Below, one piece after another: positions 4,186-51,180 of a DNA stretch of 64,000 bases. The translations under genes and the position numbers were made by a program. The DNA is taken from contig NC_088300.1 of assembly GCF_032854445.1 (NCBI RefSeq), positions 53,604,984 to 53,668,983 on the forward strand, read 5' to 3'. The stretch is from Liolophura sinensis (lineage: Eukaryota > Mollusca > Polyplacophora > Chitonida > Chitonidae). Positions within the stretch are counted from its first letter, which is position 1. Each line of letters begins with the position of its first letter. The notes under the pieces are model-generated. The model ran no database searches, had not been told where the DNA came from, and saw only the letters and a list, made by a program, of their open reading frames with translations.

Positions 4186-4297
4186 GCAGCTCATGCTGGC
4201 TTCCTCTCTGGCCATACATGGGAAGGTCTGCCAGCAACTTGAGGGTTGTAGTGGGTTTCCCCAGGGCTCTGCTCGGTTTCCTCCTACCATAATGCAA
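4186..4297 (+). mobile_element. SINE body fragment
   Basis: It carries the shared SINE body: GCTCATGCTGGCTTCCTCT, GGGAAGGTCTGCCAGCAACTT, GTGGGTTTCCCC and CGGTTTCCTCCTACCATAATG. The tRNA-like head and the AAATAAATA tail are missing. The same body occurs at 38308-38575 (minus) and 47866-48130 (plus). Confidence 0.75.
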
Positions 4298-8300: not shown

Positions 8301-11300
8301 GGCAGATGACATGCTGACATGACAGTACATGAAGTGATGTCAGTCCTCATTAGACATCAACTAATGGTGCACATGCATTCCCCATCATTGTGTAAAATTA
8401 TCGACCCATAGAAGGTGGTGATTTAATTGTTGCCCCTGAAAGAGCACATTCAGCTGTGTAAATAGAGCAGATTACGTTTTACATGTATGTCTGACTAAGT
8501 TTGGCTACCAGTACTAGTAGCTGTTTTGGAGACATTTACGCACATACAGGTACAGGGATGCACAATGGCTACAGAAAGAGGTCATCATGCTGGAATATAC
8601 ATGTATAAGGTTTTGACCCCAATATAGAAAGAACGTATTTTGTACAGACACATTAAACCAACTACATATAAATGATGTCTACAGTGTGGGAAAAATTCTG
8701 ATTTTAGTTCTTTACAATATGGTGCATGGAGTGCCTAATATATAATATGTGTACAATGTACGTGGACTTTGTTCTGTGCATTTGACAAGCAGGCATTTTA
8801 TACATATTTATAATAATTTTGCTTTTTTGTTAGAATATAAAATAAAAATTCTGTTCGGTGATTTTATTATCAGGAAAACATCATGGTAATGAATCAGTTG
8901 TTTCTGTGAAATTCTCTTGCCTTTTATGTTGATTGTTTTATTTGATGGAAGTTAGGCTAAATAGTAATGGAGAAAAAGACGTACTGTCAGAAAACTAAAA
9001 TATGAAGTAAGGTTCATTAGATAGACAACTGAAAACTATGTGTAAAAATACTTTCATTTATTTTTTTTATTTTTAGATTTTTAGTGAAGAGTGTTGAAGG
9101 CCATTTAGATATTTAAATTCTATGGTGGGCTTTATGAGCCATACTGACAGTATCTAGGAACTCTAACCTCACATCATCATCTTTCCTGATGTTGACTAGA
9201 AGAAAGGAATTTTGTTTCTGTGATCTTTTACTCATGGGTAAAAAGAGTTATTCCAGAATTCAGTGTAGTGATTAGTGTTGAGAAAACTTCCTGTGACATT
9301 AGAGCTCTTAAACTCTAATAGTATGGGCCATAAAACCCACCTAAGAATTCAAGTGGTTGAACACCTTTAACTCTCTTCAGAAAAATCTAAAAAAGTAATT
9401 AAAAGTATATTTATGCATAATTTTAAGTGGTCTGTAAAGTGATGCTTACTTCAATTTTTATACTTCTTTTCCTTCAAACGCTCAATCTCCTAGATTGAGG
9501 GTCTACTGGACTGAATGGACTATATTTTAGTTCATTTTTAGTTGAGGATCAACTGCAAGCGATAGTAATATAGTTTGGAGACATTTACTTTTGTGAAAAG
9601 TGGGTTTGTGTACTATGTTATGTTGAATGAAAGGATGAATGAAAGTTTATGGCTTAATGCCATGTCAGCAGTATTTCATCAAAATTGTCGAGAGAACACG
9701 TTTATATCAGGAGACAGTGAATGGCTTTCGACATGATGGGAACATTGAAAATAAAACAAAAAAGATCAGTTAAAAGCAGTGAAAAAGAACCAAACCTCAT
9801 TAAATATTTTGTATTAAAGGCTGGCAATATAATGATACAAAACTTGGAATAAATAGTTGCTTTAAATGTATCAACAAGATCCATGACATGGCATGGGAAA
9901 AAATTCCCACCTAAACACATGTTGACCAGCCCCGATGGCTTAGTTGGTAGAGCGTCCACTTCTTTGGGGGTGGCAGTAGATTTAGGGTCAGACCTGGGCT
10001 GAGTCACACCTACTACCTTAAAAGAGGAAGTTGTAGCTTCCTGGCTTGGCATTTGGCATTAAGGGAAAGAGCAGTGACTGGTTGACCCGTATCTGTATGA
10101 TGGCTTTGGCGGTGCGGCTTACTTGCCTTCGGTAAGTTGTCTTAGTGAAGCAGCACTAGATAAAAGAGTGATGGAAATCTGTCCTGCAACAAGGAGATAC
10201 ATAACATGCTAACATTTACTTGTGAAATGTACTTGCAGTATGATGATGTATAGTGCAGTGTATATACTGTAAAGGTACCCTATCTGGTTTTACAGAGTTC
10301 AAAGAGAGTTCTTCGTTCCAACGAAATTGTTGTTCCTCAGAACGGTGTTTTGGACACAGAACTTGATCTCTACTTCTCATTGCCAGTAAGTACAGTAGCT
10401 CTGCCATCCGTGTATAAGTTTTTAAAATCATTTCTAATTTATGTAATTGAGAGTACTGCATTTACCCTAAAATTTGCCCTTTTAGAGGTGAAATGTAGTA
10501 TAGTAGATCTGTGCTGAAACTTACATTTTGCCAGGAGGATATTTTCCTACCTTCCGAACAAATCTCATAACACCTAAAACCATTAAAACTCACAGAATCA
10601 TGCAATAGGAGTGACTTAGTCTTGAACTAAGTTTTCTGTCAAACACAGTATAAATCTGGTTCATATATTCCCTCATGGTAACGTAAGGGTCTGGAAGAAC
10701 ATAAACATGTATGTGTATTTTCGTGTGACATCACATTTTTAATAATTAAAGGAGAAGAAAACTTGAAAACATGACGCTATAGGCTGAATAGAGCACATTT
10801 TTTTCTATCTGGTGGTGCCTGCTGTATCATTTTATGTTTTTTCCTCCCCATACACGTAAAGCCTGAAAAAGGCAAAGCTGGCATAATTCGCTGTCCATCG
10901 CATACTCCATCTTAACACCCTGTAATTTATGCTGGGGGTGTTGCCTCTCACCCAGTGAGAGTCGTTGAAACTGCCGGCTTGTTCGTGTAAACTCGGAACC
11001 TACGTCCAACTTTCTGGTTTCCGGATCGTCAAGCAGAAAACGAACTGTACTGTTCACTACGTTCTGGGATGAAGAGTTCCACCAGAAATGTACGAACTGT
11101 ACATCGGCGGTTTCCAACGGCAATTCTCCTAACACAGAAGACTTCAGTACTAGTTCAAAATGGAGTCGCCCAGCAGGTTTCGGTGCTGATTTTATCTATA
11201 ATTTATCAAATTGAGGTACACATTAGAATTTTTTTTATGGCATGCACCTGCGAGGAAATGCATACTCTTTTCAATGGTATTTGACTGATATTTAAATTTT

Positions 11301-14300
11301 CTTCTCCTTTAATATTAATAATATTTTTAACATTTTTGTAGTAGAAGTATATATGTTTCTCATCTGCAGTATCCTCATTTTATGAAGAGGGATGGAAATA
11401 AACTTCAAATCCTATTACAACGCCGAAAGAAGTACAAGAATAGAACAATACTTGGCTACAAAACCTTGGCGGTAGGGCAAGTTAGCATGGCACAGGTGGG
11501 TGGTTCTCTCACCTAACTTTCATATCTAAATTTGAAAGTTCTTCAATTTTCTTTTGTAGAAAATGAATAAATCTTTGTGTATAAAGTCAAGTGAATAAGG
11601 CGTTAATAACTGTAGACCAGTTTTACGAAGAGCATGTAGCGCTAGTTACAATATAATATGTATAATATATGCACATGTACTCTGAACTTTAGTTTAGATT
11701 TGTTCTGTTTATTCTGAAGTGGTTTATGTTGTAGGTATTGCAGTGCTCAATCAGCAAGGAGCTGAACTTGTATAGTGACCTGAAAGAGCGGACGAATGTT
11801 GCTGCTCAGGTCATGGTGATTGCCCTGTCCAGTCAGCCTGTTGACCACGAGGAAAACGGACATCGCAAACTGCGTACCTCTGATGTGGGTAAGTTGGCAG
11901 ATGGTAATCTTATAACCTACTGAATACACGATAGCCCTCACAGGGACATGCATCTGCTAAGGCTGCCAAATACATCCTTTACATCTGTTGCCCTTGTTCC
12001 ATAATGGTTTTTTTTCCTTTTTTTTAAAAAAGACATTCTTATGTATGATCACCAGCTGATTCAGTATTTATAGCAAACTCTAATTATCATCTTAACGTAT
12101 CCCTAATAATATTTTGCTTCATTTCATTATTTTTCCTGGTGTTTGTAGAGAATTACACAGACGATGAAGATGCTCCTTATAATGACCCTGAATACTCATC
12201 CAATGACGAGCTCAGTGACAGCGAGCCAATGATGTTAGAGGAAGATGGACGCTCAAGGCCTCGGAAAACTGGACGCTTACAGTTCAGACCTCTGATGTCC
12301 AGCGTAAGCCATGTGTTACTTGTCCACCTCTACATGTAGCTTTGTATCTGATATCATGTCAACTGCAGATTTCATTAAAATAATTGTCATCTGAACACCC
12401 TTTTTAAGTGCATGACCAGGAACTATGTTAAAGCCCTATGTCACTTAATAGTCACACACAGCTCTGTAAATTTTTGTTTTTGTCTCTGCATTTGGACAAA
12501 ATTTCCAGTCGAAAAATACACATATAAAACTTGAACCGAACATAATCCTGGGCTGTTGCTAAAGTCTGCCATGTTGTAGCATAGGCGCACATGTAAATGG
12601 CTATGTTGTGTAGATTATTACACTTGTGACCTGTTCTGCACATGGTGTGTACAGATACACCAGTGGAGACTGCCTTCTAACTCACAAAACATACAAATGT
12701 TCTTGAGTGCGGTGTTAAACACCAATCAAATAAATAAATAAAGCATACACTTGTGTTACATGTAGGCTGAAGTTATGTGAGGAAATTTATTACTTCAGAT
12801 GAACTGTTTATACATGATGTCAACTAATGTTCTGCCATAACACCGTGAAGCATGTACTGCTAGTTCAGGTTATGAATTACTTAATAATATTTTGTTATGT
12901 ATTTATGTTCACAAATGTATGACAGCACCTGTGATTGAAGTTTGAGTGAGTGAGTGAATGCTTGGGGTTTAACGTCATGCTCAACAATTTGTCAGTCATA
13001 TGACGACGATGATTACAGTTTGAAAAGCAAATCGGTGGTTTTGGACTAACAAAAAAAATACATTGTAAAGTGCTTTGAATGTTATGTCACTACCCACTCT
13101 AAACGTGACAAAATATGTAACTCATAAGCATACTGATGTGTAGGAGAAATGCATCACAGAATTTGCTGTTTTTTTCTGAAATATTATTGTGTTTTCTGAA
13201 ATATTAAGTAGTTTTGTTTAAGAAATTGTAAGCTGAGTATATATTAATAAGGGCACCAGTTCATGTTATACTTCAGCATCTTATATAAATGTAACCAACA
13301 CATTGAAGTTCATTTTTCTCTGAGGTACAGTCACTTGGATAATGTTGATTGTCTCTTCAATACATCTTACCACTTTCTTTGTATGAAAGACATTAAAAGG
13401 GAAGAATGATCAGGTGAATGAGACATTGTCATTAGTTAGCTAATCATTTTTTGGAGAGAATACATGTGCTTTGCATTCCTTTTAAATAAGGTTTATCCAT
13501 GCTGCAAAGAAAATCTCTTGTCCTAGAAAATGTTGCATGTGCATGTTTCATTTTACAAGATGATAAATCAGTTACATGATGTACTACCTCCCCTGTATAC
13601 TAGCAACTTGATTATCTCCCTTTAATTCCAGCAACGAAATTTCAAGCAGAAGTTTGTTGCCCTTTTGAAGAGATTTAAAGTGACAGATGAGGTAATAGTT
13701 TAATTCATTTGGTGTTGTGGCTAGTCACTGTTTCCTGTTTTGTTGGTGGTGATAGTCTTTATTGGCTTTTGGGCATTTGTTCTTGCAACCTGTTTTCAGT
13801 TAGCAACAATAAACATACCATTTATTTATGCATTTATTTCATTGATATTTTACACCGCGGTCAAGAATATTTCGCTGTGATAGGTATGATGGCTGAAAGT
13901 GGAGGAAATCAGACACAGGGTCTGGGGAATACCATGGCACTTACTCATTTATCTGAAGTATCCAATCAGCTGAGGAAATTAGTACATTTTTTATTTTCAT
14001 TTTTTTTTGCTTTTTCTCTGGAAGATGTAATTTAAGTGGTTTTGATTTTTATGCTCGTAGTTCAGTAAACTTTTAAAAGAAGTTTTGCAATCCATGATTT
14101 TCTGAACATGAATATCTGTATAGATTTGGTTTGAATTCTGTAAGGTTGCATGGGAAGTTATGCATGCGGAGTTCACATTTTAACTTAACCCCAGAGACAT
14201 ATCGAACCTTAGCTTCTGTTCATACAGCAGTATGTGAGAAGACATACATTTCATTAAATAAGGCATCGAGTACATGTGGCTCTTGACCAGGTGAATCTCA

Positions 14301-17300
14301 GTTTATCAAATTGGATAGTTTGTTTTGTACCTTTATTTCTTGTCTGCATTGTCCATGTGTTAACATATTCAAGACAAATGGAGCTTAAACCTAGCTTAAC
14401 TGCTTTACAAAATCTCACCGTCTAGTGAAATCCTAGCAAAACATTTGTTCTGGACATGGAGCATTTCCTCTCTGTAAATGAATGACATGTATATTTTTTT
14501 ACAGTTTGTGAGAAAATAAAGGAATTAAATCAGATTCTTTTATTCCTGAAGTTGACTAATAAGAGTAGACTGTAATAAGTCATCTGGATTAACTTTCATA
14601 AACCTAAAACTGTGAGTTATTTCTCTTGAAACCAAAAATTATCTCACTGGTGAAAGTTTGTTTTGTTAACCAAATCTTTGCATGTCCTAACTGTAGCAAT
14701 TGGTTGTTCATAACTTTGCTTTCGCTGTGGTGTCACATTATTTCGTGATGAACTTTCACATTTGTATGTATTTCAACTTTTCTATGTAAATTTAGCTAGA
14801 ACCTTTGTGAAGTTCTTTCTTCACATGCCTTGGATTGCATGTCTTGGACGTTTTATTGAGGCTTGATACTGGTGACTATTTGTGCATGAAATATTTGCTT
14901 GCTTTCTGTATGGCAGCATTTATGACATGTTCAGTTTCAGATGTTTCACAGTTGTGCTAATCCTCTTTTTAAGCTTAATTCAGTATTTTGTTACAAACCT
15001 CTTCACATGCTATTGTACTCTTTTTGTATAACAAGCTACTTGAGATAATGATCATAAAAAGCTGAGAGTACTGTACATGTGGTGTATATATTACCTCTGC
15101 ATTTTAAATTCGAGGTATTTTCTAATTGTGATAGCACATTAGTTCAGTCAAAAGTGATTTGTATGACAAAACTGGATATTTGAGATATGAGGTGTGGACA
15201 CAACATGTACGATTGTCTTGCTTGTTTACTTTTGCCAGATTGTGTAAATTTACAGATTTTCCCCAGGCTCTGTCCAGTTTCCTCCCACTCTAATACAGGC
15301 CGCAGTCATATAAATGAAATATTCTTGAGTAGAGAGTAAAATGCCAATAAAATAAAAAACATAAATAAATTTACTGACATTTGCATCACTTTCATTATGA
15401 TCAATGATTGACTGAAAAGAATAATTTAGCACACACAAAATTTGGATAATGGAATTGAATTATTGCCGAGGAACAATATTTTTTTGTTAGTAATATTTTA
15501 CTCTGAGGCTGTTAGTGTTACATAAGATTATAGCGTGAAGAAACAGTATATATGTAGCGTGTTTTTTTACCTGAACTTTTTGCCAGACAAGTACAGTAAA
15601 CCATGTTTTACAGGTTACAGCTTTTGTTGCATTTACTCATTGATGCATACATACATACATACATACATATGTGTACTGTGTCTAACTTTTACTCCGTTTT
15701 CTGTTGAAGACACTTCGGTGAGTGTTGCGTCAGACATTGTCTAATATACTGTACATGCGGTTGACCGGATATAGTGTTTTGTTCAGTCTGCTCTACCTGT
15801 ATGACACAAAATATTCAGTCCCATATGTATATATGTATATATATATATATATATGTATAAGTTAGTATAAGTGCTGAAGGCCCAACAACCAGTAAGTGTA
15901 CATGTTCATGCTCATCACTGACATGTGAGGTCAGTTTGATGAGAGGTTCACGGTATATGCATACGGGCGATTCCAGTGTGTATTAAAGATTAATCTTACA
16001 TGTACATTAGCATGAAAAAATAGAACAGCATTAATTAAAACACCAGTTACCACTGAAAACATACTAGATATTCAGCAAGTGATTATTGTCGAGAAATTTT
16101 TCTGATTCTTTTGGATAATAATGATCAGTGATTGTGTGGGTGGTGAAAACTTTATTTTCAGATATACGTGAAAAATCGCCATCATTATTGCTTGCCACAT
16201 AAAAAAAATGTGGTCTTAAAAAATTCTTTTTAGTGTTGTGTGCACATGTATCCTTGTCATTTTGTGTTATACACAAGGTCATAATTGGTGTTGTACACAA
16301 AAAGACAACCTTTCTGTTGTGGAAAAACTGAACTACATGTACATCTTTGAGGGATTTAAGTGCTAGTGATGTGATTTGTGAAGTAATGTGTGCATAAACA
16401 TATACTGCAATGAAGAAAAAATGTGTATGTATGTTGGACTACTCTGGATGAGTCTCTATTTACAGGTGCTGGATTCAGAACCTGACCAGGAGCTGGTAGA
16501 CACTGACCAAAACCCCCAGGACATTGATGACCTGTTTGAGGAGCTGGAGAATCTCAGTGATAGTGAACCTGACCTGGACACACTCAGTGTTATCTCTACT
16601 CCCAAACCCAGCCTCAGGTAATGATATTACTCCCAAACTAAATCTCAGGTAATGATAACTCCTAAATCCAGTGTCTAGTAATGATATCTACTCTCATCCC
16701 CAGTAACAGATAAGATTATCTGCTACCAAACCCTGATTCAGGTAATGATATCAACTCCCTAACCCAGTCTCTGGTAATGACATCTACTTCCAAATGCAGT
16801 CTCAGGGAATGATATCTACAAAGCCTCGGGTAATGATGTCTGCTACCGAACACATCCGTGTGCAATGATATCTACTCCCAAATGCAGTCTCAGGGAATGA
16901 TACCTACAAAGCCTCTGGTAGTGATATCTGCTACCAAACACATCCATGTGCAGTGATATCTACTCCCAAATGCAGTCTCAGGGAATGATATCTACGAAGC
17001 CTCGGGTAATGATATCTGCTACCAAACACATCCATGTGCAATGACATCTACTCCCAAGTGCAGTCTCAGGGAATGATATCTACAAAGCCTCGGCAGTGTT
17101 ATCTGCTACCAAACACATCCATATGCACTGATACCTACTCCCAAGTGCAGTGTTAGGTAATAACTACTCCTAACCTCAATTTTCGGTGATGATATCTACT
17201 CTACGGGGAAAGCAGTTCAAAGTTATACATTCATATGCCATGTTTTGAGGGGTGGCAAACCTGTTTACCAAATTCATAAGCTGTATCATTTAGCCAACGA

Positions 17301-20300
17301 TGTACAGTGTATGTACCTACATGTATTTATGAAACACTAACTTGAATGTAGTGATGTTTGAAAAGGAATACAAGGCCACTGTCACAAGACATCTAAGGCA
17401 ATCACCATGCCTTATATTGACAATGACAGAGGTTGTCAAATCATACGGCTGCTGTTTTACACAGTTGTAAATTTATGGTATACTACCTCTCCACATTCTG
17501 GATAGTAATATTTATATGTATTCTAAAGCGTTTCAAATCGTCTACACTAGAAAAAGTTAAACAGTCGTGTAAAAAATGTTGTTATTTAATACCTGTTTGT
17601 TGTTATCTGCCTCATTTTTGTTTGAAAGGACTATAATATTCCAACTTGATCTGCACAATATCAGGCATCTAAGCCTTGTTCTCTTACTATTTCAACCCAT
17701 TCGTCATCTATAGTATCGTGCTTTGCCTGTTCATTTGACTTGAACATCCCAAAATGACACATGAGGGCCTGGTCTTAAGTTAGAACATGTAATTTGATAA
17801 TTGTTTGACCTGTGTATTTTTGTTATCTGCTCCAGTGCTCATCCATCATAACAGCATCTCATTTTCACATATATTGTTGTTGGTATTACTTGTAGCTGTT
17901 TGATAATAGAAGTTATAACTTACCCTGAACTCTTCCTTTTTTTCCAGACCTTTCTTCACCGGTAAAGCCAGATCAGCTGAATCCCCAGAAATGACAAAGG
18001 TGAAGTGTTCACCTGAAAATAATTATATGTATACAACTATTTTGCTTGAATAATAAAGTCTGCCTTAGATTTTTATATTTTGCCTAAGTTGCTGAATGGG
18101 TAATCAGATCACTCCCTGTTGGCTGAAGGCACCTGACAGCAGCTGTCACCCAGGTGATTTAAGCATAGCACTGATTTAATGAAAATTCACATACATTCTT
18201 TAAGTGTTTTCCTGAGGAAGCAGAATCGATGATTATTGGCTTGAGAAGCTACATGTTGGTTGAAGGGTTTTGTCATGTGGGCACTTCAGTGAACACAAGC
18301 TATAATCTGATAATATACAGTCCCCATACATCAGCTTTGCAGCTTGTCATGGTATGGCTGAAATATTGCTGATTGGTGTTTAACCATAATGATTTGCTCT
18401 TCAGCTTAGGATAGGCTTCTCACAGCAGCCAGTCAGTGACAGTTCTGTTTCCTGTTACATATACATATAAATTTGATGATTTGCATTGAAGAAATTTGAT
18501 GTCGGGATGATCATCAGATGACAATAAACATCAGATGTTTTGTTACAGTATGAATAATGTAAATGATCGATGTCTGTGTTTCATCATGTATCTTTCAGTC
18601 TCTGGACAGTGGCTCTAAACTTCAGGAGGACATTCCTGGTGCCAGTATAAAGAGGATGGACTCTGAGCCTCACATGGTTAGTACTTTTTTGTGTAATGCT
18701 AGTTATCCAAAATTAACAATAGGTATCCAGAAAGTCTCATTGTGGCTTTCCAAAATTAAATATTTGGTTTTGTCAAAACTGCATTCTGCGAAATTTGAAC
18801 TTACCAAAATTCATATTAATGTTGTTCATATTTTTTAGTAATGTTAATAGCAGAGAATATGTATATAGGTGCTTTTATTGTTGTATTGCTTAAGGTCAGA
18901 TGCATGTTGACCCGGTAAAACCAAGTGTAGTAATATCAATTGATATGTTTCTGTGACTAGGCAATTTGTTACCCAAAAAGCTTTAGTCGTATAATTTAAA
19001 CTCACTGCCATTTTGGAGGGTTGTGAATGACATGGCCGTCTAATACAGTCACCATTCCTGATTTCGTTTGCTGTGTAATAGTGTATAACATGTTTTTGTG
19101 GGTACTGTGTTAGGTGATTGATAAATGGCAATAAATGCTCCTTAACTGTACATGTTACTTCCTCACGACTTATGGCTGTGCTAATTTCTTGACCTTTGTG
19201 CAATGTTATGATATTGTACCAATTTAAAACTTCAGATGATAACACACATATTGTAAATCCATGTATCGAAAAAGTGTGCCACCTAGACAGCCTCCCCATA
19301 AATTCAGTTTGTAATGTAAAATTGAATCTGAAGTTTCTATTCTTTTGGGCCCCCCCCCCCCCACACACACACACAAATTCAGAAGAAAGGTCATGTCAAA
19401 GCAATGTAAAAAATCTGTTGGTGGTAGAAGGTCAATGGACACTTCACTGACTAACTTGAGTTTAAATAATTGATGATTTTTTTCGTCAACTGCTTGTAAA
19501 AACGTAATAAATTGACATGTCATCATAATGCGTGTTCATGCACATTTCTTCTATCAGTGTTCATGGAATTTTAGCACAGACTAAATGGCCCTTCCGCTGT
19601 TCTCCTAATGATTTGACAATGTTCACAACTAAGTCACTGGCCTAGCACATTGTCAAACTGACTGCTGAGAGCTCACAAAGCCTATCTTTAAAACCACTTT
19701 TCACCTTAAAAAGAAGGTAGAGACTCCATTGTGCTCCGACATGTTAGGCCATAACCTGAAAAAGAGAGGGAAAATCATGTCTCATAAATGTTTAACAAAA
19801 TGACTTGTTGTTTTGGCTGGCCTGGATTCATGTTCTGAATTCTGAGCTGTACTAAGTGTGACTGTGGGTTATATTGTCTACACTAATTCACTGTTACAGG
19901 AGATACCAGAAATAAGCATTACTACCACCCCAGGCCCCGAGGTAGATATGTGTTTTGAGGTGTACTCCCTTGACTAACACATAACCTGTTAGCACCAATT
20001 TCTCTTTGTCTCTCTAACACCCTGTAACTCCCTAATTCCTGCCTCCTTATGCCATTCAAGGGTTGTGTCGTAGGTCAATATGATCTTCACTATTCTACTC
20101 CATTCTGTGGGTGAAAGTATTGCACCGGCATGGCTGTTACTGTGGTGTTTTACTGTTCATTTGTCCATAATGACCCACATCCTGTACTGGTATTTCATGC
20201 TGAAACCTTAAAGTTTAAAACTGTGCAGCACCTTGCTCCGTGAAATATCAGTTATTATGCTACATTCCAACATGACTTTGTGGTAAATACTGTGGAGTAA

Positions 20301-36900: not shown

Positions 36901-38806
36901 CATAATATGGTATTGTCTCAGTTTATAGTCATCATGTACCTGGTGCACAAGTGATTCCTCCATCCAAAAACAGGACTCGTGTCATATATGTATGACTATA
37001 TACATGTACTTAAAGGGCAAACACAAAATTCTTGAACATGGCCTTGAACACCAATCAGTATTACAAACTAAATACTGAATATTATCAATTGTCATGGTAA
37101 TGATATACATGGTGGCTTTAGCCGAAATGATCATACTAGTATATATCTAAAATTGCTTGCGGAAATTATAATTTTTTCAGGTCATTGGTATGCCAAAATG
37201 AAATACTTCATAATATTCATAAAATATTTACAGTTCTCTCTCTTCTCTGAAGAATACACGATGTTGACCAACATGATAATCTAACGAGCTAACAAGTGAT
37301 AAAACTTTCAGGCATATGCCATGAATAGGTGGATATACTCCTTTATTTTACAATCACCGACAAGCATTCTGTGTCGTAACACATGAATACAGTCAGAAAA
37401 TATTCTTGGTTTAGTACCCATAATTTTGGAACCAGAACAGAGGTACAATTTGTTGTCTCACTGAAATATGTCTTATTGTGCAAGCATAAATGGATTACCT
37501 AATTTACCAGTGGTGTAACTTAATTTTTTTGGTGCCTGCTATCAGGGCAGCCTGTCCTCACTGGAAAGAGCCTGCCATCAGGGCAGGTAATAGCTTAAAA
37601 CTGCCTGCCCACAGCCAGTGTTCGACGGCTAAGTGTTACCAACTAAAATACCTTCGATGGAATAGATGAAACAATGAAGCACAAGCGTAACATACATTAT
37701 ATAAATTGATCGTTCTCTTGTTTTGGTCATACAACCTATTGTGATCAGACGATCGAGTAGCTTTATCTTTGTTTGGATTTTTCACAGCATGGTTTGTTAG
37801 AAAACAGTCCATCGTCACAAAATTGCGGCTTCTCGTTAGCAACAGACTTGACGTTACAAATACAAACTCTCCTTGGTATCGAGAAATAGCGGCTGCTTGA
37901 TCGGGCAGGCTACGCGAGTCTATAACATGCCTGCAGCAATTTTTGCCTGCTTACCCTATGCTCATAATTGTAGGAGTCAAAAAGAGAGAAAATCTGGTGA
38001 TATGATTTACTGGACCTTTTAAGTTTTATATACAAGCTGTACATTACATCATTTCTTTTAACCAGATAACTAGCAAAATTGTAATTTCAAAGACATGTCA
38101 TTTAAGTCATGCTGTTACATGCCTGTGCTCGTGCTTTCTTTTCAAAAAGGCATGAAGTGTTGAACTCCACGGCACTTTGGCTACACAGAATTACCAAACA
38201 AAGCAATGAAATTGCTCCTATCTGAAACAGCTTTAGGATGCCACCCACTCACTGCAGTTCTCCTTTCTTATTAAATGTAGGTCTACATGTTTTACAATGA
38301 TAAGTGTATTTACTTGTTTTATTAATTTAATTGGTGTTTACACTGTACTCAAGAAAATTATATTTCATGACAGCGGCCAGCATTATGGTGGGAGGAAACC
38401 ACGCAGAGCCTGGGGGATATGCATGACCATCAGCAGGCTGTTGCCAGACCTTTCCATGTACATACAGGGGGGAAGCCGGCATGAGCTGGACTTGAACTCA
38501 CAGCCACCAAATTGGTGACAGACTTTTAGGTTATTGTGCCGTATTGGTACACTAATCTCCTCTGAGAATGACAAATAAACCACAGTGCTAACAGTGATGT
38601 AACATTATGTACTACATGCAGTAACAACCTAGCCTGTTCAGTGATCTCCAATGATGTGATGCAAGTCAAGTGATACATGTACGGACTAATAAATCCAAAT
38701 CTTTCTTCAGAAAGAATTGCTACATTTATGTAGGCCACATAAAGTTGTAGACTGCTTGATATTCATGCCATGGAGTTCTTGAGGGCAAAGCAATACATTC
38801 AAGGGT
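36901..38806. other. Intergenic region between convergent PACS and FAM50
   Basis: No gene was recognised. A repeat-like block at 37530-37990 (GCCTGC(C/T)ATCAGGGCAG twice) and a SINE at 38308-38575 occupy much of it. The FAM50 3' UTR should lie in its right part; TTTATT (AATAAA on the minus strand) occurs at 38318 and 37342. Confidence 0.5.
38308..38575 (-). mobile_element. Near full-length tRNA-derived SINE
   Basis: Read on the minus strand it has a tRNA-like head with GTGAGTTCAAGTCCAGCTCA (B-box like). Then follow GGCTTCC, GGAAAGGTCTGGCAACAGCC, GATGGTCATG, GGCTCTGCGTGGTTTCCTCC, CACCATAATGCTGGCCGC and TTCTTGAGTACAGTGTAAAC, and an AATTAAATTAATAAAA tail. It probably overlaps the FAM50 3' UTR in the same orientation. 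Confidence 0.75.
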
Positions 38807-41800
38807 CTATTTCACAGTGATCTTAGCTGCATTTTTATCAGACACAGTATACTGATCCCACTTTTTCTCAGGATCATACGGTTCCCATCGACTTGCAGGG
38901 AAAATGTGCTTATTCCTCTCGTACCAGCTACGCAAACAGACTTTGCCCGCATGCGAGTCCTCCTTCTCCACTGTGGCATCGCTTATTATCCGAACATCTT
39001 CTTGCACTGAGAACGTAAACAAAGGACCGCTCTTTCCTCGAGCTTTAGTCACAATAAAATCATAAAAAGTGTAGTGATGTGGAATGATTAAGTCCTCTTT
39101 GACGTACATCAACTGATCAACGCTCACAGATTTCAAGTCATTGAACTCTCGTCGCAGCGTCTCCAGGCACTTCTGTAGGAACTGTTGCACGCTGTTTCCC
39201 TTCTTCATACGAACCTGTCGTCTGTGGCCAGAGCCATCCCAGTAACTGTAAGTGATGCTGATTTCTTCATTCTTCACCTTCTCCTGTTGACACACCCATT
39301 CCTGTCGTAACTGTTCTCTGTCAACAAAAATCTCTCAAGAATTGAACAAAACTTGATGTACATTGTAAATGTTAAACAAAATACCACAAACCTTCAAAAA
39401 CTCAATAAAACCTGCTGTTTAGTGCATTAGTGCATTTAATTTGGTAACATTCTGACATAAAGAGGTATGATATCAAGCCAAACTTCAAAACATGTGACTG
39501 ATAAACTTTCAACAAACCTCATTCTGTTCTCTTCTTCTTCCCTGTCTCTGTCTGGCAAGAAACTGGTGTCCACCTCAGGATTTTTACCTGTAAAGTCAAG
39601 CATTTTATGTCAATACTCAAAAACACAAAGATCAAAGCAAAGATCAACTCCTATAATTGCATGTTAACATGTTAATGCAAACATAATTTCAGCTTTATTT
39701 ACAATCAGAATTGATTACAAAAATGCTATAAAGTTTCAGATCTGACAATAATCAGAGAATCTTTATTACATGTAATTGAATTTCTAAAAATTATTCTCTG
39801 TAAAGCCTTGCCAATCAGTATCTTAAGATACATAAATTACAATTTGGATGGGCATTTATATGTGGACTTTTGCAGTTCTTTTAGAATAATTTTACTACCT
39901 ACTAAACAAGGTCATAAGGTAATATATGATACCATAAAACGAGGTCAAACAATGTTGTTTGATTCCCCAAAAATGTACCTATTAAACCCAGAGCGTTAAT
40001 TCCATATTTAAACCCCTAATAACTGTCTGCTTTCTTATGAAAAGGCCAGTGTCATCTTGGCCTACTACTCTCACCCAGCCTTCGTTTTTTCCCTGTGGCT
40101 ATCTGCCTCTCTAGCTCTCTCTGTTCCTCTTCTTCATCAGTTTCATCATCGCCTTCATCAGGATCAAATGACAGGTGAGCAATCTACAAAACATTGTAAA
40201 AAAACAGGTGTGTAAAACCATAACAAAAAGCAGCCAAATGATAGGTGGGTAATCAGCAAAATAAGATTAAGCAATGTTTTCACAATGTCAACCATGCACC
40301 ATGGAAGTGGGTACTTCTTGAAACTTAATGCATTCATGTATCTCATTATTTGGACAAATGACTGGACTGGTTTTCATTGTGACTTAAAGGAGAAGAAAAC
40401 TTTAAGAAATGACAATATAGGCTGAAAAGAGCACATTTTTTTTCTATCTGGTGTTGCCTGCTGCATCATTTTGCCATTTTTCCTCATCATGCACGTAAAT
40501 CCTGAAAACCGCAAAGCTGGCACTGAGTCCACCGCATCCTCCATCTTTCACACCCTGTAATTTATACTAGGGATGTGTTGCCTCTCACCCAATGAGAGTT
40601 GATAAAACTGCTGGCTCGTTCGTGTAAACTCGGAACCTACATCTAACATTCCAGTTTCCCGATCATCAAGCGGAAAACAAACTGTATTGTTCGCTACCTT
40701 CTGAGAAGAAGAGTTCTACAGGAAATTTACGAACTGCACTTCAGCGGTTTCCAACGGCAATTCTCCTCCTAACACAGAAGACTTCAGGACTAGTTCTTAG
40801 GCAAAATGCAGTCGCCCACAGCGGATTTTGGCGTTGACAGTATTTATAGTTTATCAACTTGAGGTACATATTAGAATCTTTTTATGGCATGCACCTGGGA
40901 GGAAATGCATACTCTTTTCAATGGTATTTGATTGATACCTAAATTTTCTTCATGAGAACTGATATAAGATTACATCAATGAATCTGAGAAAGTCATTTGT
41001 GCACTCTCACTCATATTATGTTTATGTGAAACATAAAAGCCTTTGGTTTATGAAAGGGATAGCGGAAAATACACAAGTCTTGGATACAAAGCATCTTTTC
41101 CTCTAAAATTCAACATTAGGTTTTCCATTTTACCTTCATCTTTTCTTTGCGCTTTCTCTCTTTATTCTGTTCCTCAACCAATCGAGCTTGAGCGTCTTTC
41201 TTCGCTAACTGTGCTTCTCGTTTTCTAATCACATCTTCCTGTTTAGCTTTCATCTGATCCAGGGTCACCAGACCTTAATAGTTCAAGGAAATAACGAGAA
41301 CAAAGGACAGCTAAACAAGTGATAAGAAACAAGCTGACTTAGACAGACATAAAACAGGTATACATATTATTATTATTATCTTGTCAAGTCTCCTCCGGCT
41401 TGATCTAACACTCATCACATATTCTTTTTTATCTCACCAAAAATGCATAAAGACTAACATTCTGACACGAAAAAAAGAGGCCAGGAAAATGAGGTCTGGT
41501 AAAGAAATGTTCTTACCTCACATCAGAAAAAATACTTATGTTTTTCATTAGAGAGTAAGGGTTAGATGAGGGAGGTGTATATTCCCATATTCTGCTGCCA
41601 ATATCACATGTTAGTGTTGAATAGGTTATCTCCCTTTGTTCAGGTGCAAAAACAATGGTCAAGTCGCTAAGGGGATTCACTGATACTGTGCTAAATATCA
41701 GCCTTGTGTGTTGACTTAATGGGTCTTTTGCAGGATAAATGACGCCTTGTCCAATATGAGGGTTACTGTCACCATATATTTCCATATCCGATCACTCGGT

Positions 41801-42922
41801 AACCATGTAACGAATCTTATCCAACATCAGACAAAATACTCTTCATTGTTGTGCTTTTCATTGCACAACAATGAGGGGGTAGAGATATATTCTCGAATCC
41901 TGCGGACGACGTCAAATGTGTCTGTGAGTAAGGTTATCTCTCTTTGACTACACATCGCTGCAGTGATTCACCTATTCATCGGTCTTCTTCACTGAATGGA
42001 TGGGTCTTTGCAGGATACATTTGTTACATGGTTATGTGGTGATAGGATACGGAAATATATGTCAGTAGCCTTCATATTGGGCTTGGCGTGGATTACTGAT
42101 ATTTCCGCATCCTATCACAGAGTAATCATGTAACTAATAATATGTGTTCCCCTATGCTCTGCCCGGTTTCCTCCCACCATAATGCTGGTCGTCGCTGAAT
42201 AAGTGAAACATTCTTGAGTAAAGCGAAAACACCTGTCAAATAAATAAATATATAAATAAATAATATGTCGTTAAACACTTACAGGCCATGTAATGCCGGG
42301 TGTTTTCAAAGTAATAAACAAACTTTTACACTTACAACCATGCAGAGATGCAACAAGGATTTACTGTGCTACGCTCAAAAATTTTTCACTAATTTCACTT
42401 AATACATGACAGAAATCATGGGTGGATAAAGCTGAAGTTTTGGGAGTAAACCACCGCCCTGTCACGCACTTATGAAATCTACTCACTTAATGCTGCAGGC
42501 AAAGCAGCAAATTCTGAATATGAACACCAGAATTCATTTGGTCATGGGAATGACAGTTACAATGTGCTTAACTGTTGAAGCCACCAAGCATACTGCAAAA
42601 CTTCAGGTATTAAAATAAAATTCAGCAATGCCCTTCAATCTGCAGTTCATTTCATTTTCCATTTAAAGATACATAGCTCCTTATCATACAGCTTTAAGTA
42701 TTTCATTTGATTCTTCAAACATATACTAACCCACTGTGTCAGATTTTAGTTGAGCTTCGATAGCATCATAATGTGTCGCAAATTTGTTCTGTATACTCCC
42801 AATTCTCAACTCTTCTTCAATCTTTTTCTTGCGAGCTTCTAACTCCTCCTGCTCTTTTTGACGTTTCTTGATGAGATTTAAAGCTCTTCCAGCCTCAGAA
42901 GCTGCTCCTTGTAATGTGCCAT
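38807..42922 (-). CDS. FAM50: FAM50 / XAP5 nuclear protein, one-base frameshift near the start
   Basis: FAM50A/XAP5 proteins are nuclear, associate with the spliceosome and are conserved from plants to man. Exons on the minus strand, 5' to 3': 42922-42731, 41273-41134, 40183-40075, 39587-39518, 39317-38807 (stop TAG at 38809-38807). All introns are GT..AG with matching phases. The protein has a basic N-terminal helix region, [21 protein letters not shown], an acidic stretch ([12 protein letters not shown]), basic GKKRRLGK (likely nuclear signal) and the XAP5 domain with [37 protein letters not shown] and [20 protein letters not shown]. With one base added the length is 340 residues; human FAM50A has 339. 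ATG GCA CAT TAC is followed by AAGGAGCAG, where GGGAGCAG would restore the family start [14 protein letters not shown]. Confidence 0.93.
40385..40951. mobile_element. TTAA-bounded element, copy 2
   Basis: It is similar over its whole length to 10744-11316, in the same orientation: start TTAAAGGAGAAGAAAACTTT, middle CCTGTAATTTATACTAGGGA, GAGAGTTGATAAAACTGC and the end TACTCTTTTCAATGGTATTT. The right terminal repeat is degraded (TTTTCTTCATGAG). It lies in the FAM50 intron between exons 40075-40183 and 41134-41273. The minus-strand frame is kept for long stretches but has stops. Confidence 0.8.
41540..42136. mobile_element. Two diverged tandem copies of an inverted-repeat element
   Basis: Blocks near 41571-41640 and 41879-41948 are direct repeats (GATATATTC, CTGC(G/T)G, GGTTATCTC(C/T)CTTTG). 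ATGGGTCTTTTGCAGGATA near 41728 recurs as ATGGGTCTTTGCAGGATAC near 42000. The arm GTTACATGGTTATGTGGTGA (42023 onward) is inverted at 42099-42134 and again at 41770-41810. It sits in the longest FAM50 intron. Confidence 0.55.
42146..42264 (+). mobile_element. SINE 3' half
   Basis: GCTCTGCCCGGTTTCCTCCC, ACCATAATGCTGGTCGTCGC, AGTGAAACATTCTTGAGTAA and a tail CAAATAAATAAATATATAAA. It abuts the preceding inverted-repeat element. Confidence 0.7.
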
Positions 42923-46800: not shown

Positions 46801-48381
46801 GCCTAGTGAACCGTGGTCGCTAAAATGGCGAGCCCGAGCATATTTAACTGGTCATTCAACGCCATTTTGTTTCTTGCTGAGATTTTCTTGAAGCAAACAA
46901 CACATTCATTCACAGACATTTCCCTACCTTCAGTGATGGTTTGTTGTGCCATTTTTAGCTGTTCCAAAAAAAGTGAGATGTTTTCATCAGCTTCTTCCAT
47001 GTGGTGTTAGATTTCATCAGGACAAGGATAACAAGGTGATCTAGCATTTCTCCATGTGACTGGATCGGAATGCTCAGAGCTATCACTCAAACTCCTTCTG
47101 TAAACGGTCATAGATTCTTGGTTCAAATTTATACCATTGTAAAATAAATGACGTCTTCCATGTTGTGTAAATTTACATTGGTCTCTGTTCACTTACATAC
47201 ACTGCACCTGATTTGTTGTCGGCTGGCTACTAGCCCTAGGTACATGCATATACATTGTGGGCAGGCTGACATTCTCGCACTTATATTTTAGAAATTGAGA
47301 TTATTTCTGCTGCCAGTGCATGTCCTAAGAACTGTAACTCAAAACTGGACAATAAGGAAAATAAAGCACTCACGGGCTAACAATGTCGTCATTATGTAAT
47401 AATTGTGTCTGCCGTCATACATGCAAAATATTTTTGAGTATGGCATAAAACACCCATCAAACAAATAAATAAATACGTGTACATATAACTTGATGGAGAA
47501 ATGGAAACTGTTTAAGTAAGGGTTCTTGTAATTTGCTTGAGATGTTATATGCTGTGAGTTCAAGCCCAGCTCATGCTGGCTTCCTCTCCGGCCATAAGTG
47601 GGAAGGTCTGCCACCAACTTGCGGATGGTCGTGGGTTTCCACCTTTTTCTGCTGATTCACATGTATTTATGCTCATGACCATCAGTGTCAACAAGTACAC
47701 AGATAATGCATACTCAGGCTGTATGTAAAGAAACTTTAACCTGTAGTCTGTTAATCTGTGTTATCCAGGTTTCAGTAATTTGATACATGACATAGCTAAA
47801 TGTCTACAACATTATATCAGTATTATTTTCTCAAAAACTGCTTCACAACACAGGGATAGGTGCAGGTGCCTCTTTGGCTCAGTTAGTTAGCGAGCTAGCA
47901 CAGCGTAATGGCTCAGGAGCCTCTTACCAATAAGGCTGTTGTGAAATCAAGCCCAGCTCATGCTGACATCGTGTGTGGCTGTAAGTGGGATGGTCTTGCA
48001 GCAACTTGTGGATGGTCATGGGTTTCCACTGGGCTCTTCCCGATTTCCTCTATCCATAATGCTCGCCACCATCATATAAGTGAAATATTCTTGAGTATGG
48101 CGTAAAACACCAATCGAATAAATAAATAAAAGACCTCTGGCTAAAGTCCTTGGTCTACTATGTAACCACCTACCAGGTGTATAACCGCGATCGAACTGTT
48201 TTGTTTCAGTTTCTTTCCCAAGTTTGACTTGACACGACTGGTCCAAGGCCACACACCTGTCCTGCGTAAGCTGAGTAGTGACATTGAACTACGACAGGCT
48301 TACCAGACCGTCTATTGTCAGCTGTTCCAGAAGTACATTCAGGCTCAGAAATATGCCCCAATCCAGTCAGGTGTCGCATGA
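43892..48381 (+). CDS. NOXRED1: NOXRED1-like NADP-dependent oxidoreductase, with a frameshift
   Basis: The family has a pyrroline-5-carboxylate-reductase-like Rossmann domain; its substrate is not known. Exons: 43892-44091, 45083-45283, 45553-45896, 46052-46250, 48210-48381 (stop TGA). The dinucleotide-binding motif is clear: VKIGILGCGRLGSHLA, then EISTRRPELL as in vertebrate NOXRED1. DVLFLCVLPSQLHLV, LLNFTNIIKP, ALEKPSVVEKTSPL and FFPKFDLTRL follow in family order. ATG at 43892 is the first in frame. Two oddities: in the third exon the frame must shift between about 45774 and 45800, because the match changes frame after NIIKP; and exon 1 ends in phase 2 while exon 2 needs phase 1. Either small assembly deletions, an unseen exon, or gene decay could explain these. 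Confidence 0.85.
44092..45082 (+). other. NOXRED1 intron 1, possibly hiding an exon
   Basis: Exon 1 and exon 2 phases do not agree, so a small exon may lie here. I did not find one with good acceptor, donor and open frame. Otherwise ordinary intron sequence. Confidence 0.35.
46803..47192 (-). pseudogene. Antisense open stretch interrupted by one stop
   Basis: Two minus-strand frames, 47192-47007 and 47000-46803, are the same reading frame separated by one TAA and two codons. They include YRRSLSDSSEHSDPVTWRNA and FLEQLKMAQQTITEGREM, which look protein-like. No family was recognised. It could be a decayed gene or transposon fragment, or chance. Confidence 0.25.
47412..47476 (+). mobile_element. 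SINE tail fragment
   Basis: CCGTCATACATGCAAAATAT, TTTTGAGTATGGCATAAAAC, ACCCATCAAACAAATAAATA. Confidence 0.6.
47540..47645 (+). mobile_element. SINE head and body fragment
   Basis: GTGAGTTCAAGCCCAGCTCA (B-box like), TGCTGGCTTCCTCTCCGGCC, GGGAAGGTCTGCCACCAACT and GCGGATGGTCGTGGGTTTCC. Its 3' half is missing and the sequence changes abruptly at about 47645. Confidence 0.7.
47650..47865 (+). repeat. Duplicated block, copy 1 (in NOXRED1 intron)
   Basis: GCTGATTCACATGTATTTAT through TGTGTTATCCAGGTTTCAGT matches 48757-48895 almost base for base over about 140 bp. The end ACTGCTTCACAACACAGGGA matches 49081-49103. The middle is shorter than in copy 2. Confidence 0.9.
47866..48130 (+). mobile_element. 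Near complete tRNA-derived SINE
   Basis: The A-box-like TGGCTCAGTTAGTTAGCGAG is followed by a B-box-like GTGAAATCAAGCCCAGC. The body has GGATGGTCTTGCAGCAACTT, GATGGTCATGGGTTTCC, ATAATGCTCGCCACCATCAT and ATTCTTGAGTATGGCGTAAA, and the tail is AATAAATAAATAAA. It is the best copy in the window and lies 80 bases before the last NOXRED1 exon. Confidence 0.85.
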
Positions 48382-50689: not shown

Positions 50690-51180
50690 GAGTCACTATC
50701 AACCTGAATCTACTAACCTGCAGCTGAATGTATCAACGTGCAGCTGACATGGCTGAAAGTATCAGCTTCAAGCTGGAGGTAGGAACCTGCAGCTGCAGGA
50801 ATTAACCTGAAGCTGAAAGTCTGAAGCTTGAGGTATCAACCTGAAGCTGAAAGTCTGAAGCTTGAGGTATCAATCTGAAACTCAAGGTATCAACCTGAAG
50901 CTTGAGGTATCAACCTGAAGCTGAAAGTCTGAAGCTTGAGGTATCAATCTGAAACTCAAGGTATCAACCTGAAGCTTGAGGTATCAACCTGAAGCTGAAA
51001 GTCTGAAGCTTGAGGTATCAATCTGAAACTCAAGGTATCAACCTGAAGCTTGAGGTATCAACCTGAAGCTGAAAGTCTGAAGCTTGAGGTATCAACCTGC
51101 ATGTGAAGGTATTACCTCATAAAGGGAAGTCTCAGCCTGCCCCTGGAAATATCAGCCTATTGAACGTATTAACCTGCGGC
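50690..51180. repeat. Minisatellite, 74-bp period built from ~20-bp submotifs
   Basis: The block CAATCTGAAACTCAAGGTAT starts at 50871, 50945 and 51019, an exact 74-bp spacing. The unit is made of variants of GGTATCAACCTGAAGCTGAA. Diverged single submotifs extend to both sides, roughly 50690-50810 and 51100-51180. Confidence 0.95.

Follow-up and report, generated by a model that had tools for sequence, protein, structure and literature searches.

A minisatellite very probably seeded by the edge of a PACS exon

In the globin genes of amphioxus, tandem repeats termed "mirages" extend across exon-intron boundaries, at either edge of an exon, and the report that describes them also cites Adh3 and other loci (PMC3087553). 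According to the excerpted text of that report, many, not all, of the copies carry AG/GT signals, regular splicing is apparently undisturbed, the arrays are unstable in length and the cluster boundaries are left out of homogenisation. PGBD5 and TnC were added to the mirage loci in a further study (PMC3902484). In humans, the variable number tandem repeat (VNTR) of ABCA7 intron 18, which is highly variable among people, has the exon 18 donor as its first two bases, and a single 25-bp unit of it can be retained, out of frame (PMC5954066, in part). Internal tandem repeats, with units averaging 30 bp, are likewise reported at exon-intron boundaries in human segmental duplications, together with a link to alternative splicing (excerpts of PMC2812944). 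Here we describe an array of this kind in a PACS gene, found within a 64-kb window of genomic DNA (the whole stretch that was analysed, 64,000 nt, to which all coordinates refer). It is very probable that this minisatellite arose at a splice junction, with the edge of a PACS exon as its seed, and that its history and its effect on splicing are those proposed below.

The repeat unit, 32 bp in length, straddles the end of a PACS coding exon: its first 23 nt are the last ones of that exon (16595-16617), and its other 9 nt open the adjoining intron. The seed, designated unit 0 (16595-16626, plus strand; delimited by unit alignment), reads TCTACTCCCAAACCCAGCCTCAG/GTAATGATA, where the slash marks the predicted exon-intron boundary 16617/16618 (CAG/GTAATGATA). 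This boundary-spanning unit opens a contiguous head-to-tail array (16595-17213), in which 19 intronic units, each 23-32 bp long, and a partial unit of 19 nt come after it, the cuts between units having been set by a hand parse. Tandem Repeats Finder, which had been suggested as a check in a preliminary description of this DNA, detects the array in two registers, with a period of 32 at 16595-17083 and of 88 at 16776-17151, and the spacings obtained in a separate repeat search agree with these periods. The array is thus real, as the preliminary description had stated, although it runs slightly beyond both ends of the range given there (16600-17200).

Three parts of the array can be distinguished on the plus strand. 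Units 1-5 (16627-16782) are older, diverged monomers of 28-32 bp, two of which carry an exact decoy donor, with GT at 16649 and 16742. They are followed by a higher-order repeat (16783-17133), in which a trimer of monomers A (32 bp), B (24 bp, with 8 bases missing) and C (32 bp) is present in four copies; the last copy measures 87 bp because unit 16 is short by one base, and GT is found only in B units 7, 10 and 13. The distal edge (17134-17213) is again old and contains units 18 and 19 and the partial unit 20, which are nearest to units 1-3. The spacing of "exactly 88 bp" claimed earlier therefore holds for the inner block only, since the units outside it are 28-32 bp long. The 88-bp copies are identical to one another at 77-82 of 88 positions and resemble each other more than the founder monomers resemble the seed; the copies match the seed at between 18/23 and 28/32 aligned bases, the lowest share being 22/32. 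Alignment of units 1-3 with units 18-20 yields 48 matches in 67 positions, against 40/67 for the next best block. The inner units are, in other words, homogenised, while the edge units are diverged and most like each other, which is as expected if the array grew from inside an older, shorter one.

The exon origin of the unit was compared with chance in several ways. When the ten intronic units of founder type (1-8, 18 and 19) are combined into a consensus, with the exon excluded, the result matches the junction at 31 of 32 positions, and the consensus of all 19 intronic units does so at 30 of 32. The sole difference of the founder consensus, AGC in the exon and AGT in the units, is synonymous in the exon frame (both Ser). 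This bears out the earlier suggestion that the exon end has been copied many times into the intron together with its donor context. The last 23 exon nt align to the intron with a score of 31, which exceeds the best of 1000 dinucleotide shuffles (24). Among 8904 other 23-mers from the window none attains this score (best 27; reverse complements, best 30), and the similarity is thus more than chance. As a further control, the ends of two neighbouring PACS exons were aligned with the sequence downstream of their donors (for the exon at 18599-18676, a fixed stretch of about 1300 nt and not a mapped intron) and showed no such similarity, with Smith-Waterman scores of 14 and 15.

The 20-nt core pattern CCCAGYCTCAGGTAATGATA, derived from the seed and its copies, was searched for on both strands of the window with up to three mismatches. 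It gave nine matches, seed included, all within 16607-17078 (0.02 expected by chance) and none outside the array. Outside the array, the plus strand of the window holds no ungapped match to the 32-mer better than 19/32. A single exact pattern gave no match among IMG/VR contigs, a collection that is irrelevant for an animal satellite and provides no test of unlinked copies.

Within the exon, only the terminal 23-29 nt or so are more similar to the intron than expected by chance. Once the terminal 23 nt are removed, the exon aligns to the intron with a score of 20, a value reached by 123 of 500 shuffles (mean 18.2) and produced by a 10-nt match, CAGTGTTATC, common to 16585-16594 and 17094-17103. 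A full extra unit further upstream in the exon was considered and is unsupported, the score of the remaining exon lying within the shuffle range.

The coding exon that provides the seed (16466-16617, plus strand, 152 nt) has the acceptor CTATTTACAG immediately before it, encodes VLDSEPDQ...STPKPSLR and ends in phase 2 (AG). Its assignment to PACS is based on the frame, which can continue through a phase-2 intron into an exon at 17948-17999, open across 16617/17948. Two downstream exons match Pfam family PF10254 (Pacs-1) with 46.3 and 53.4 bits (E values of 4e-12 and 3e-14; cut-off 25 bits), a third reaches 16.6 bits, below the cut-off, and the exon 16466-16617 itself gave no Pfam match above it. 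A search of solved structures with this exon and a C-terminal PACS exon as queries returned no PACS chain. Vertebrate PACS1 presumably has a similar stretch across the junction (STPKPKLRPFFEG), a lead for which a string search of the literature found nothing.

The array lies in a predicted phase-2 intron of 1330 bp (16618-17947, plus strand), bounded by the presumed authentic donor GT of CAG/GTAATG (16618-16619; U1 duplex -8.1 kcal/mol) and by the acceptor CTTTTTTTCCAG/ACCTTTC, with the frame kept. The predicted next PACS exon (17948-17999, plus strand) would complete the Arg codon, add 17 residues and end at the donor AAG/GTGAAG, in phase 0 (as read from the sequence) before the exon 18599-18676. 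There are 25 AGs in 17214-18600, that at 17948 included, which leave 17 open codons in the needed phase; among them we judge 17948 to be the best candidate acceptor, given its longest pyrimidine tract and its fit to the next exon.

Inspection of the copied donors revealed that GT is retained at the donor position in 9 of the 19 intronic units and lost in the other 10. AG/GT is kept in three units and the exact CAG/GTAATG in two; on the plus strand of the window the latter motif occurs at three sites, with GT at 16618, 16649 and 16742. Copies that keep CAG/GTAATG are therefore present, as had been noted, although they are a small minority. Within the 88-bp block the donor is gone from all four A units (GG) and all four C units (GC), which indicates that the expansion mostly multiplied dead donors. 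Pairing with U1 is weaker at 16830 and 17006 (-7.4 kcal/mol each), 17157 (-6.5), 17186 (-5.4), 16918 (-5.2), 16774 (-5.1) and 16678 (-1.8) than at the presumed authentic donor.

The consequence of using a later donor can be read directly from the exon frame, which continues ...CTC AGG TAA. The in-frame TAA (16619-16621, plus strand) is the first codon after Arg and precedes every later donor, so that any transcript using one of these would encode a truncated protein. Six of the nine units that keep GT were run as donors, and in each case the protein ended at ...STPKPSLR. Of the two outcomes envisaged in the preliminary description, an exon lengthened by a repetitive peptide is refuted by this stop and was rejected, and the encounter with a stop is what would always follow. 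The expected product of decoy use is a truncated protein or a degraded mRNA.

We infer the following order of events. A local tandem duplication, by slippage or unequal exchange, would have made a second copy of the 32 bp that lie across the 3' edge of the exon and its donor; this first step perhaps took place between short direct repeats such as TCTACTC, which is found in the exon at 16595 and at the distal edge of the array at 17195. The extra copies would have landed on the intron side, free to multiply and drift, and the exon-side copy would have been held by the demands of coding and splicing. Later, three diverged monomers may have become locked into the 88-bp unit and been amplified to four copies, and the two array edges would have stayed old and divergent. 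Judged from the sequence, 16618 is most likely the main donor, and it can be paired with an acceptor that keeps the frame and has a long pyrimidine tract. Splicing may now and then proceed from the donors at 16649 and 16742, in which case the transcripts would stop at the TAA at 16619 and probably decay. We see no sign of selection keeping the donor copies, which are related and few, and we read the array as neutral and as one that yields few unproductive transcripts, if any.

Several observations weigh against this reading. U1 pairing is equally strong at 16649, 16742 and 16618 (-8.1 kcal/mol each), and by itself thus gives 16618 no advantage over 16649. Mean conservation among the copies is higher in the 9 intronic nt (0.86) than in the 23 exonic nt (0.76), which could mean that the intronic part is being maintained, the copies being related and not independent. 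The best local alignment of the whole exon starts 6 nt before the presumed unit edge (16589-16617; it scores 33, and none of 500 shuffled exons exceeds 27); together with the match of CAGTGTTATC, this makes the left edge of the seed at 16595 good only to a few bases. Finally, the use of 16618, the neutrality of the array and the order from exon to array are drawn from one allele, and the acceptor of the intron is a predicted one.

One alternative is that the donor copies are kept for regulated unproductive splicing, diverting part of the PACS transcripts to a form longer by 31 or 124 nt that ends at the TAA at 16619. Such diversion would tune dosage and vary with repeat number, in the manner of the retention of one VNTR unit in ABCA7. 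Two exact donor copies do stand beside the donor at 16618, every such form is truncated, and single-unit retention has a reported counterpart (PMC5954066, in part). Donors have nevertheless been lost from more than half of the intronic units, among them every A and C unit within the 88-bp block, and we consider this explanation distinctly unlikely.

It is also highly improbable that the array came first, as an intronic minisatellite whose copy was later captured as the end of the exon by a donor shift. The exon tail is indeed one more unit of the array, which by itself gives no direction, and the match reaches as much as 6 nt further into the exon than the presumed edge of the unit. Against this order, the end of the exon has an open frame that runs on into the predicted next exon, whereas all three frames starting at 16618 run into stops within the array. 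The similar stretch presumed for vertebrate PACS1 would, in addition, make the exon end ancestral.

A length-variable splicing rheostat, in which the number and state of the donor-bearing units near the authentic donor set the share of PACS transcripts ending at the TAA at 16619, appears very improbable indeed; if it did exist, repeat expansion would tune PACS dosage between individuals or tissues. That the copies were mis-assembled from one exon edge is extremely unlikely: repeat arrays are prone to mis-assembly, but the copies diverge from the seed more widely than collapse or stutter of a single sequence would explain. Only the count of 88-bp units may well be in error.

We retain the birth of the array at the splice junction, with the exon edge as seed, as the best account of this locus.

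Other repeats were recognised elsewhere in the window. A second minisatellite (50704-51099) has units of 20, 34 and 74 bp, the 74-bp unit being 99% matched over 3.8 copies at 50821-51099, and contains AGGT 12 times in 397 nt; it was considered as a second array of exon-edge type, but no exon was recognised beside it by eye in six frames. Two dispersed copies of about 570 bp (40384-40951 and 10746-11304), 84% identical, probably represent a transposable element. A short interspersed repeat family is present as partial copies on both strands (47550-48130, 38307-38524, 15259-15370, 4187-4295 and 42147-42262), pairs of which are 71-89% identical. ARAGORN (bacterial settings) predicted no tRNA, including none for this family, and a search of Rfam gave no matches. 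On the minus strand, an open frame at 38810-39334 matches PF04921 (XAP5/FAM50; E value of 3e-58). The base composition is 37.1% GC, with a CpG observed/expected ratio of 0.34; across the whole window this ratio is 0.28-0.43 per 16 kb and TpG is in excess, which suggests a heavily methylated germline genome.

The PACS array opens no new class, its kind being already known from the lancelet mirages and the human ABCA7 VNTR. As an example of a splice-junction-seeded minisatellite it is a clean one, with the seed, the founder monomers and the higher-order unit all legible in one allele. It adds PACS to the genes named in the mirage and VNTR papers cited above and offers a precise test of donor choice by the spliceosome where the same 9-base sequence recurs at distances of 31 and 124 nt. 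If the host is not a lancelet, the array would also extend the range of mirage-type arrays to one more group of animals, next to the human donor VNTR. A literature search combining PACS1 and minisatellite gave, among the matches listed, none with PACS1 in the text, which is no proof that the array is unreported. A minisatellite reportedly supplies multiple splice donors in an interferon-induced transcript, which we take to be IFI6/6-16; this 1995 paper in Nucleic Acids Research is compared by its title only. Minisatellites in the intron of an earthworm (PMC12783039) were not used as a precedent, the excerpts of that report stating no exon-edge unit.

As far as the excerpts of the respective reports go, the PACS array shares with the amphioxus mirages (Adh3, BflGb6, BflGb9, PGBD5 and TnC) splice signals in at least some copies and cluster edges that escape homogenisation, and, as in BflGb9, it is the 3' boundary of an exon that has been duplicated. 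It differs from them in its unit, which is 32 bp long with an 88-bp higher-order repeat, whereas the units measure 150-160 bp in the globins and 10-72 bp in Adh3. In place of the many AG/GT copies of the mirages, AG/GT is found in 3/19 and GT in 9/19 of its intronic units. The cases from human segmental duplications concern recent paralogues in which novel introns were formed, whereas here a single gene is involved and no new intron was seen. Like the ABCA7 VNTR, the array starts at the donor of an exon, and the 25-nt retention observed in ABCA7, which uses a cryptic donor lying one unit further on, is comparable to the predicted PACS form longer by 31 nt. The 25-bp unit of ABCA7 begins at the donor GT and is intronic, whereas that of PACS begins about 23 nt inside the exon, so that 23 of its 32 bp are coding.
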